A stretch of 64,000 nucleotides of DNA from Fictibacillus terranigra (GTDB lineage: Bacteria; Bacillota; Bacilli; Bacillales; Fictibacillaceae). How positions within the stretch are numbered: position 1 is the first letter of the stretch; every line of letters begins with the position of its first letter. The notes under the pieces are model-generated. The model saw nothing but the letters and a program-made list of their open reading frames with translations. It made no database searches and was not told the DNA's origin. Location of the stretch: assembly GCF_030412265.1 (NCBI RefSeq), contig NZ_JAUHLN010000002.1:620001-684000 (forward strand), written 5' to 3'. This document shows, piece after piece, positions 7,040 to 45,909 of the stretch. The position numbers and the translations under genes were made by a program.

Positions 7040-7822
7040 TTAACTGCTCTGTATATTTTTGTTCATCTGTGATATTGCCGCTTTTTCCAGTCGTGAGACC
7101 TGGGCCTGGGAGATCCCGATTTCATCAGCGACCTCCATCTGAGTTTTCCCTTGAAAAAATCTCATCGTCAAGATCATTTTTTCTCTTTCGTTAAGTCGTC
7201 TCATCGCTTCTTTTAACGCGATCTCTTCTATCCACTGAAAATCTTTAGCCTTATCATCACTGATCTGATCCATAACATAGATAGGATCGCCTCCGTCATT
7301 GTAAATAGGCTCAAAAAGTGAAACGGGATCCTGTATAGCATCCAGTGCAAAAACAACTTCTTCTTTTGGCACCTCAAGCACTTCTGCAATCTGCTGTGCT
7401 GTAGGTTCTCTTGAAAGCTTATTCATAAGCTGGTCTCTTACCTGAAGAGCTTTGTAGGCGATATCACGCAGAGAACGCGATACCCGTATGGGATTGTTGT
7501 CCCGCAAATATCTTCTTATCTCACCAATAATCATAGGCACTGCATATGTGGAAAATTTAACATTTTGACCAAGGTCAAAATTATCGATGGATTTCATGAG
7601 GCCGATGCAGCCGACCTGAAATAAATCATCCACAAACTCCCCGCGGTTATTAAATCGCTGGATAACGCTGAGAACCAAGCGCAGGTTGCCGTTTACTAAC
7701 GTTTCTCGTGCAGTAGGATCCCCGTTCTGCATCTTTGTGAACAATTCACGCATTTCGGGATTTTTTAATACTGGAAGCTTAGACGTGTCTACTCCGCAGA
7801 TCTCTACTTTGTTTCGGGTCAA
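7040..7822 (-). CDS. sigG: Late forespore sigma factor SigG
   Basis: RNA polymerase sigma-70 family factor that drives late forespore genes. The 260-residue sequence carries the near-invariant N-terminus (RNKVEICGVDTSKLPVLKN), region 2 (NLRLVLSVIQRF, DDLFQVGCIGLMKSIDNFD, KFSTYAVPMIIGEIRR) and region 4 helix-turn-helix (MEVADEIGISQAQVSRLEK). It starts at TTG 7822 with GGAGGG upstream. It is preceded by its own SigG-like promoter and can also be reached by readthrough from spoIIGA-sigE, as in B. subtilis. Confidence 0.99.
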   Translation of the reverse strand: MTRNKVEICGVDTSKLPVLKNPEMRELFTKMQNGDPTARETLVNGNLRLVLSVIQRFNNRGEFVDDLFQVGCIGLMKSIDNFDLGQNVKFSTYAVPMIIGEIRRYLRDNNPIRVSRSLRDIAYKALQVRDQLMNKLSREPTAQQIAEVLEVPKEEVVFALDAIQDPVSLFEPIYNDGGDPIYVMDQISDDKAKDFQWIEEIALKEAMRRLNEREKMILTMRFFQGKTQMEVADEIGISQAQVSRLEKAAISQMNKNIQSS

Positions 7823-44144: not shown

Positions 44145-44702
44145 TTATTCGTCTCTCTTCAAGTACAAAGAGAGCTTCGTGCTCCCATACGTCTCTTCTC
44201 TGACTCTTTCTAAACTTCCGATCGAGGAAGGAAGAATTACCCCTGGATCATGTTCTGCAACGACCTGAACCCCATCACCTAACAATCCATATTCATCCAG
44301 CTTTTCCACGTCGTCAGCAATCCGCTGCTTTGCGTAAGGAGGATCAAGAAGAACGAGATCAAATTGAAACTCCCTTTTTTTTAATGCTTTTAATGCCCGA
44401 TGGGATTCAATTCTATATACTTCAGTCTTCTCTTCATAACCGCATGCTTTAATATTGTTTTTTATCGTCTCTGCGGCTTTAGGATCACGGTCTACAAAGA
44501 TCATTTTATCCATTCCCCGGCTTAGGGCCTCAATCCCGAGCCCGCCGCTTCCTCCATACAGATCCAGTCCGGCCCCGCCTGCAAAATAAGGACCGATAAT
44601 ATTAAAAAGCGATTCTTTAATTTTATCTGTTGTTGGACGTGTCGATTGTCCAGGAACAGCCTTTAAAGGTCTGCCCTTGCATTCTCCTGAAATAACTCTC
44701 AT
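44145..44702 (-). CDS. rsmD: 16S rRNA (guanine-966-N2)-methyltransferase RsmD
   Basis: SAM-dependent methyltransferase for G966 of 16S rRNA, YlbH in B. subtilis. The 185-residue protein starts MRVISGECKGRPLKAV and shows the SAM-binding DLYGGSGGLGIEALSRG and the catalytic DLVLLDPPYAKQ (DPPY). ATG 44702 was chosen over an upstream in-frame ATG at 44720. It is 24 bases upstream of coaD, as usual. Confidence 0.97.
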   Translation of the reverse strand: MRVISGECKGRPLKAVPGQSTRPTTDKIKESLFNIIGPYFAGGAGLDLYGGSGGLGIEALSRGMDKMIFVDRDPKAAETIKNNIKACGYEEKTEVYRIESHRALKALKKREFQFDLVLLDPPYAKQRIADDVEKLDEYGLLGDGVQVVAEHDPGVILPSSIGSLERVREETYGSTKLSLYLKRDE

Positions 44703-44826
44703 TTTTTCCACACCTAACATGAAGTAATAAAATGGTCTCGCAACGGTCTATGCCGTCATTTCTTCATTATCCTATCACATTTATTTTAGAATAAACAGAA
44801 ACTGACAGTAATTTTGTCCGTTGAAA

Positions 44827-44855
44827 GTATAGAAAATCCGGCTGGGGCCATACTA
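44827..44855 (+). promoter_or_regulatory. SigF/SigG forespore promoter of the csfG-like RNA
   Basis: GTATA (44827-44831), a 17-base spacer and CATACTA (44849-44855). The -35 is perfect and the -10 fits CATNNTA exactly. The preceding GG also fits the SigF form GGNNANANT. This predicts forespore-specific transcription starting near 44861. Confidence 0.85.
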
Positions 44856-44860
44856 AAGAT

Positions 44861-45015
44861 AACAACATCCCTAACTGATGTTGTTGCCAACCGCGGAGAA
44901 GACTTACTTCCCCATAAGTTCTTCCTCCGGTTTCTCCTCTCCCATCGCCTTAAAGATAGTAAAATTGTTTTTACTTATCCTTGGGCAACCCGCAGAAGTT
45001 CTGCGGGTTTTTTTT
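44861..45015 (+). ncRNA. csfG: CsfG sporulation small RNA (probable)
   Basis: No coding frame occupies this 155-base stretch between rsmD (ylbH) and ylbG, the known location of CsfG in Bacillus. It begins with a perfect nine-pair hairpin (44861-44869 with 44877-44885). A long imperfect stem follows (about 44890-44931), whose loop is CTTCCCCA. Next come a pyrimidine-rich linker (CTCCTCTCCC, 44934-44943), a hairpin at about 44955-44979, and an intrinsic terminator. The forespore promoter, length, location and C-rich unpaired segments all fit the CsfG family as I recall it. The C-rich loops could pair with Shine-Dalgarno sequences; that is inference. Confidence 0.85.
44987..45015 (+). terminator. 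Terminator of the csfG-like RNA
   Basis: AACCCGCAGAA and TTCTGCGGGTT form an 11-pair stem with almost no loop, followed by eight Ts. Confidence 0.93.
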
Positions 45016-45094
45016 ATGGAACAGGGCTGGCTTTCACTTTTCAGCCTGAGCCTTGTGTGCTAAAGTCAAAGATAGAAAGGGGGCATCGAATCGT

Positions 45095-45472
45095 ATGATT
45101 CAGCGTTTTATAGAGCTTGGAGAAGGCTACTCGGATATTTATGAACTCATGGAAATTGCTGAAACAAACAAAAGAAGAGTCAGTCAGCTGCTCTGTCTGA
45201 GAACAGAGATTCATGGCAATCCAAAAGCTTCATTCATTGTCGTTCTGGATCCTGCAAACGAAGGGAATTTTCAGCCGCTCTACATATGCCGTGAAGGAAT
45301 TCCTGCCGATTCAAAACGTTTTAAGCTTTTTGAAGAGCTCTCCCGAAAACTTGAAAAAGAGATCATCATGTTTGACGTGAAACCTTCTGGCGACTTTGGA
45401 GAGAAAGAGCTGTATTACCACTATCTGACCGGTATTTTGCGCTTAAACTATCTTATTCCGCCATTGTCATAA
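45095..45472 (+). CDS. Conserved hypothetical protein, possibly DUF7147
   Basis: A 125-residue cytoplasmic protein starting MIQRFIELGEGYSDIYELME and ending in LRLNYLIPPLS. I recall similar proteins at this locus in several Bacillaceae, without known function. It is alpha/beta in look, with no membrane segment or cysteine motif; a conserved-looking EKELYYHYLTGILRLN region lies near the end. ATG 45095 follows AAAGGGGG at 11 bases. No clear promoter of its own was found, so readthrough past the csfG terminator is possible. Confidence 0.8.
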   Translation: MIQRFIELGEGYSDIYELMEIAETNKRRVSQLLCLRTEIHGNPKASFIVVLDPANEGNFQPLYICREGIPADSKRFKLFEELSRKLEKEIIMFDVKPSGDFGEKELYYHYLTGILRLNYLIPPLS

Positions 45473-45539: not shown

Positions 45540-45815
45540 TCATAATCCCATCTTATAATCATATTCCTTTGCTTTATCCGGAATCTTGCTCTCATATTCT
45601 GTTTTAATTTCATGTTTAAAGGATCGTTTCACTTCTTTTACGAAATGAAGAGATTCAAGTTTACTCGCAACATCTTCTATTTTAGAACCATCGCAATAAA
45701 TTACCGCATATTTCATCCGTTTAGAAATGTAATGCACATTTCCATATCTTCTCAGCTGCTTAGAAAATTTCAATGAATGCAAATAAACCGCAAGCCCCAT
45801 TCGGTTTCCAATCAT
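45540..45815 (-). CDS. ylbG: YlbG family protein (UPF0298)
   Basis: Small cytoplasmic protein of 91 residues, UPF0298 family, conserved next to ylbF in Bacillales and lactobacilli. Function unknown. The core [19 protein letters not shown] and the C-terminal EYDYKMGL are characteristic. ATG 45815 was selected because AAAGGAG lies 6 bases upstream; the frame stays open to 45881 without a good site. Confidence 0.9.
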
Positions 45816-45909
45816 AAAATACTCCTTTACCACCATCATTTTTTTTAGTCTAGCACGATTATGATCAGTCTGCAATTTCATCCCATTTAATAAAGGGAGG
45901 GATTTCCTT

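Follow-up and report, generated by a model that had tools for sequence, protein, structure and literature searches.

CsfG has C-rich regions in common with RoxS/RsaE and FsrA, trans-acting small RNAs of Bacillus (PMC8216469, PMC4409812). In RoxS, one such region prevents initiation on one mRNA (PMC4409812). RoxS/RsaE and FsrA are under the control of ResDE and Fur and not of forespore sigma factors (PMC8216469), and they also differ from CsfG in that the latter has no established target; as of 2021, the account of CsfG in PMC8216469 gave no known target or role and described the RNA as highly expressed. Unpaired C-rich regions of the RoxS type are present in CsfG by prediction. Disruption of sporulation small RNAs, among which CsfG is discussed, gives no obvious sporulation defect according to the section of PMC9147052 that covers them. 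The northern blot presented in PMC3574147 detects only the strand opposite to that of the Rfam family RF00516, and the transcript is identified there as CsfG, which Marchais and others described in 2011. RF00516, named ylbH leader, covers the same DNA as csfG, but on the opposite strand, and is filed as cis-regulatory.

The csfG gene of Fictibacillus terranigra was found in a 64 kb stretch of DNA, the whole of which is called the window here, and is an already known RNA in another genome. It resembles CsfG (S547) of Bacillus subtilis in its place between ylbG and ylbH, its strand, its sigma-F/sigma-G-type promoter and its C-rich unpaired segments. Positions 44861–45016 of the plus strand are almost certainly csfG, the sigma-F/sigma-G small RNA gene beside rsmD (ylbH), because the RF00516 match, the location, the forespore-type promoter and the anatomy agree. 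The first-pass annotation had proposed a CsfG-like RNA here and would have abandoned it if no covariance model matched; the match is present. RF00516, an antisense model, gives the single Rfam match over csfG at the gathering threshold (80.3 bits, gathering 50), at 44891–45017 of the minus strand. The divergent neighbour rsmD lies at 44145–44720 on the minus strand (TIGR00095, 182.3 bits), and ylbG, recognised by its family match (DUF2129), at 45540–45881 on the same strand. The expected location between ylbG and ylbH holds, with a DUF7147 gene, whose ATG is at 45095, standing between csfG and ylbG. The gap from rsmD to the DUF7147 gene, earlier given as 391 bases free of a good coding frame, measures 374 nt from the start of the longest rsmD ORF (44720) and 392 nt from an inner ATG, and the two ORFs that lie over csfG (44814–45098 and 44878–45063) gave no Pfam match at E values up to 0.1.

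On sequence grounds, csfG is a free-standing unit with a putative forespore-type promoter and a terminator, between which three hairpins and two exposed C-rich segments are predicted. All the parts that had been named in the earlier reading of this DNA could be located. The −35 element GTATA (44827–44831) and the −10 element CATACTA (44849–44855) are separated by 17 nt, and the RNA, as delimited by the Rfam match, the fold and the terminator, probably starts at 44861, about 6 nt after the −10 element. A predicted 5′ hairpin of nine pairs (44861–44885), whose sequence is replaced in some families, is followed by the central stem-loop (44889–44932) with its AACC...GGUU basal helix. The long central stem is capped by the predicted C-rich loop CUUCCCCA (44907–44914), which is two bases shorter than the commonest form in the other csfG loci read, CGUUUCCCCA. 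The second pyrimidine-rich segment is the tail UUUCUCCUCUCCC (44931–44943), which the comparison across loci shows to be nearly invariant. A variable third hairpin (44947–44985, predicted) and a strong intrinsic terminator (44987–45016), with its stem at 44987–45009 and a run of eight T at 45008–45015, complete the gene. Elsewhere in the window, a sigG gene is located at 7052–7813 on the minus strand, 37 kb from csfG (G000:C9:627052-627813), and a T-box leader (RF00230, 132.6 bits) at 2668–2889, also on the minus strand.

The exact GTATA/CATACTA pair with a spacer of 16–18 nt occurs once in the window on both strands together; 40 mononucleotide shuffles gave 0.05 on average. The looser pattern GHATR-N16-18-CATWHTA, which we take to be the sigma-G consensus, occurs twice against 1.3 expected, so that this pattern alone is unremarkable. 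The promoter of csfG in the window fits this sigma-G pattern at 12 of 12 positions. In 97 of 160 csfG loci, which are related to one another, the best match upstream of the tail to this consensus reaches at least 11 of 12 positions; the same score was reached in 6 of 160 mononucleotide shuffles (one per locus) and in 6 of 160 reverse strands. The RNA folds with −52 kcal/mol (z −7.2 against 200 shuffles), but a good fold is predicted for the opposite strand as well (z −5.6), so that folding alone does not decide the strand. The stem is kept in 50 of 59 alignment rows; in these rows, read on the csfG strand, G-U fills 39 cells and A-C or C-A fills 8, as would be expected if the csfG strand is the one that folds. 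At three loci of one genus (L049, L051, L052), csfG lies on the rsmD strand, and promoter and terminator read as turned along with it; the same placement on the rsmD strand is seen in Bacillus sp. PAMC26568 (L230). The core is identical at all four loci. Promoter conservation, the G-U asymmetry and the four turned loci agree with the northern blot that the csfG strand is the transcribed strand.

These results bear on the Rfam label, according to which the element would be a cis-acting leader of ylbH (rsmD), and on the related idea of a cis-antisense control of rsmD. The close association of the two genes speaks for such a role: rsmD adjoins csfG at 150 of 153 loci with the exact 15-mer GGTTTCTCCTCTCCC, divergently at 147 and on the same strand at 3. 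The remaining three 15-mer sites (L182, L194, L197) lack csfG neighbours and were read as chance matches. Among at least 119 named loci that match a 44-base stretch with 43 fixed bases, orientation was read at 80, of which 78 are divergent, one is on the same strand and one lies at an edge. The northern blot, however, detects the csfG strand only (PMC3574147), at the four turned loci, where the core stays the same, the strand modelled as a leader runs opposite to rsmD, and cis-antisense pairing does not require base identity. We consider the cis-acting reading very unlikely and largely refuted. Rfam release 15 still files 44891–45017 of the minus strand as a cis-regulatory ylbH leader. In addition, among 20 csfG loci picked mostly for divergence, RF00516 passes its cut-off at five. 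A small protein gene on the opposite strand, starting at GGAGG-N8-ATG GGG AAA, would have a good-looking start site, and its frame is open to the end of the examined stretch at 36 of 160 loci. The frame, however, varies in length from 3 codons upwards, ATGGGG is missing at 12 of 160 loci, and the window reads ATG GGG AAG TAA, which refutes the candidate for this genome and leaves it a negligible probability in general.

Covariation was counted in 59 sequences (alignment A1), with 16 central-stem pairs named from one, canonical, sequence. In the central stem, 87.5% of the cells are paired compared with 80.9% in shuffles, and the covariation score was reached by none of 500 shuffles. Eleven of the 16 pairs are changed on both sides, a number reached by 9 of 500 shuffles. 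Sliding the stem partners against each other lowers both the pairing and the covariation score. With the partners displaced by −2, 12 pairs show changes on both sides, and the cells with such double changes number 40 at −2 and 50 at −1, against 40 in the unslid stem; because these values are equal or higher, neither of the two counts discriminates. RNAalifold found no consensus structure for alignment A1. The first-pass annotation had suggested a covariation analysis of the two C-rich loops. What covaries is the stem between them; there is very little variation in the tail, and six of 160 loci lack the CCCC of the loop.

The tail UUUCUCCUCUCCC is exact at 159 of 160 loci, 47 of which had been picked by an exact match to the 15-mer. 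Among the 113 loci that were not picked by exact match, 112 have the exact tail, the exception being L223. These 113 consist of 100 RF00516 matches, mostly the higher-scoring ones (L001–L100, all exact), two weak matches (L130 and L131, both exact) and 11 loci reached through rsmD, of which 10 are exact and all had been recognised as csfG by a search that tolerated changes in this tail. The loop carries CCCC at 151 of 160 loci; it is missing at L104, L179, L188, L189, L190 and L223, and L191 has three C. The tail stays where the stem has been rewritten (for example L027, L095, L115, L117, L121 and L219). Since the tail is fixed despite rewritten stems and CCCC has been lost at several loci, this comparison suggests that the tail is the core element and the loop an accessory. 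Both segments are predicted to be largely accessible. The tail has a mean unpaired probability of 0.81, with values above 0.7 in 92 of 124 distinct cores and a predicted value of just 0.56 in the window itself, and the mean for CCCC exceeds 0.7 in 114 of the 117 distinct cores that possess it. A further C-rich loop recurs in a divergent group of loci (L162–L187 and L189–L191), where the loop of the terminator is often ACCCGGG.

As a regulatory RNA tied to sporulation, CsfG is deeply conserved. RF00516 matched every one of the 34 genomes in the family, above the cut-off in 32, and 273 of the 299 in the order, above it in 269. The matches listed for the 44-base stretch include Bacillus, Cytobacillus, Brevibacillus, Aneurinibacillus, Kroppenstedtia, Melghirimyces, Shimazuella and others. 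In the class, the 15-mer is present in 234 of 398 Bacilli genomes, eight of which have two copies, and the reversed 15-mer matched four of the same 398 genomes (rows read by eye in both cases). A sigG match at E ≤ 1e-100 was found in 266 of the 398 genomes, 238 of them over the curated cut-off. All 234 genomes with the 15-mer are among these 266 (lists matched by eye, remainder by arithmetic), 32 have sigG without the exact 15-mer, and 132, again by arithmetic, have neither. Taken with sigG as a proxy, the pattern in the 398 genomes suggests that CsfG is confined to endospore formers. Several matches outside the recognised loci were discarded. The second 15-mer copies L360, L362 and L364 were, by reading alone, unlike csfG, and the weak second RF00516 matches in four genomes (L126–L129) are purine-rich, lie near gene ends and look like chance. 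The 13-mer gave five matches in 23 mostly csfG-negative genomes, none of which was read as csfG or had a csfG neighbour gene; L225 is the least clear of them.

The genomes with sigG and without a recognised csfG fall into several kinds. Of the 32 in the class sample, 23 belong to one family, f49, whose members match sigG weakly (E 1e-112 to 1e-120); csfG was not found in the rsmD region of G378 (sigG 389 bits against a cut-off of 457), the single f49 genome that was read. The other nine include seven with a changed csfG beside rsmD and two in which rsmD was not found. In the order sample, 26 genomes gave no RF00516 match, and 20 of these were listed. In eight of the 20, the sigG-like matches are all to other sigma factors; one genome, 80% complete, is ambiguous; and 11 have a sigG match of 446–470 bits, eight of these just under the cut-off. 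Among the 11, G072 carries a divergent csfG, and in seven others csfG was not found when they were read at rsmD. Eight genomes with a sigG match in which csfG was not found beside rsmD are represented by L105–L111 and L350. Some sigG-bearing genomes thus seem to do without csfG, sigG being the sole indication of their sporulation, and they fit the lack of an obvious sporulation defect stated in the relevant section of PMC9147052. In one genus of a family that otherwise has csfG (L213–L216), csfG is absent from all four loci read; sigG is absent in three of the genomes and likewise in the fourth, as judged from its non-listing in the class sigG search.

As the best-supported explanation we propose, with a probability of roughly one half, that the tail and the C-rich loop pair with purine-rich translation starts and that CsfG acts as an antisense RNA on several mRNAs, by analogy with RoxS. 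In the proposed pathway, RNA polymerase with sigma-F and then sigma-G would make the csfG RNA in the forespore, and the RNA would act in trans. The tail UUUCUCCUCUCCC, aided by the C-rich loop, would pair in several mRNAs with purine-rich, GGGAGAGGAGA-type starts and prevent initiation, as RoxS does at a ribosome-binding site, and the central stem would keep loop and tail apart and open. The complement of the tail, which is Shine-Dalgarno-like, followed by the complement of the loop, AUGGGG, would fit one translation start in antiparallel order. The tail contains CUCCU and not CCUCC, which suits AGAGGAG-type starts better than canonical Shine-Dalgarno sequences. Summed by hand over 101 genomes, sites of the form GGAGAGGAGA-N2-9-ATG number about 255 and those of the reversed pattern about 76, an excess expected of any Shine-Dalgarno-like pattern. 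The genes at the 30 of these about 255 loci that were read are diverse, and none recurs beyond one genus; the repeats L135/L136 and L146/L147 each stay within one genus. A single dedicated target was also considered and rejected: AGAGGAG-N1-14-ATGGGG has three unrelated matches in the F. terranigra genome, of which one was read as lying inside other DNA and the others as belonging to a small zinc-finger-like protein and an acetyltransferase-like one.

The same C-rich segments could make CsfG a general anti-Shine-Dalgarno decoy that damps all translation in the late forespore. The segments are predicted to be exposed, and the high expression of CsfG (PMC8216469) would suit a decoy, but by inspection the CUCCU of the exposed tail makes just five Watson-Crick pairs with AAGGAGG, and the CCUCC of the csfG RNA is located in the central stem. 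We therefore regard the decoy as improbable.

The behaviour of the tail also raises another explanation. At 112 of the 113 loci that were not picked by exact match, no C of the tail has been exchanged for U or the reverse, although G-U pairing would tolerate a change from C to U. The constancy of every tail C and U is thus stricter than pairing needs, and a protein partner stays plausible. CsfG would then be the RNA half of a ribonucleoprotein, in which the 13-nt tail binds a conserved protein and the RNA sequesters or guides it; Hfq, a KH protein such as KhpA, a cold-shock protein or another protein may be considered. This explanation, which we hold as a tentative second choice, agrees with a tail in which each base is kept although the stem beside it may be rewritten. 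PMC3574147 reports that CsfG is recovered together with Hfq on purification and that its level is modestly lower when Hfq is missing, and KhpA is described in PMC12456014 as an RNA-binding protein with a possible sporulation role, the portion concerned reporting no link to CsfG. On the other hand, no protein is known to depend on the tail, the seeds of multi-target antisense RNAs can be frozen too, and some sigG-bearing genomes lack csfG. A more specific form, which we likewise hold to be less likely than not, would have CsfG as the RNA half of a dedicated forespore ribonucleoprotein that predates the split of the spore-forming Bacilli, with the tail as the contact and the rest as scaffold; only lineages in which late forespore development was rewired would have abandoned it.

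For pairing with translation starts as for a protein partner, the comparison divides a near-fixed part of 13 nt from the changeable stem, loop and 5′ hairpin, and it points out sigG-bearing lineages without csfG, which may reveal a partner lost together with it. It also shows that the Rfam entry lies on the opposite strand and misses many divergent csfG members. The map of constraint, the lineages without csfG and the strand of the Rfam entry make it easier to test what CsfG binds.

Parts of csfG were also met in phage DNA. The sequence CCGGTTTCTCCTCTCCC occurs in five viral contigs, two of which (L355:5760-6070 and L357:1360-1660) carry AAATAAGTTCTTCCTCCGGTTTCTCCTCTCCCTTT, followed by an apparent hairpin and terminator. 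In both, the csfG core lies 97 bases after a tyrosine integrase ORF (phrog_1), which is just 138 aa long in L355, and is flanked by copies of a GCGCACAAAA-rich arm-like repeat whose starts are 242 bases apart. A core between arm-like repeats beside an integrase has the layout of an attP site, and csfG is therefore probably the integration target, i.e. the attachment site of temperate phages like L355 and L357. As an alternative, these contigs may carry a phage-borne CsfG-like RNA, with which a helix of 10–11 pairs enclosing the csfG core in both would agree. Two further contigs of the five look like chance matches. A search of the collected loci with the L357 integrase gave, besides these contigs, L319 only, in which the integrase lies about 6 kb from csfG, and an integrated copy was not seen. 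The whole csfG RNA found no match in 50,697 phage records. The remaining viral contig of the five, L358, starts within the 3′ half of csfG (L358:1-70), near an endolysin-like gene, and this start is possibly a prophage end at csfG. The plasmid search with the whole RNA returned one partial match, covering 58% of the query at 89.2%, in an 807-kb Bacillus velezensis plasmid record.
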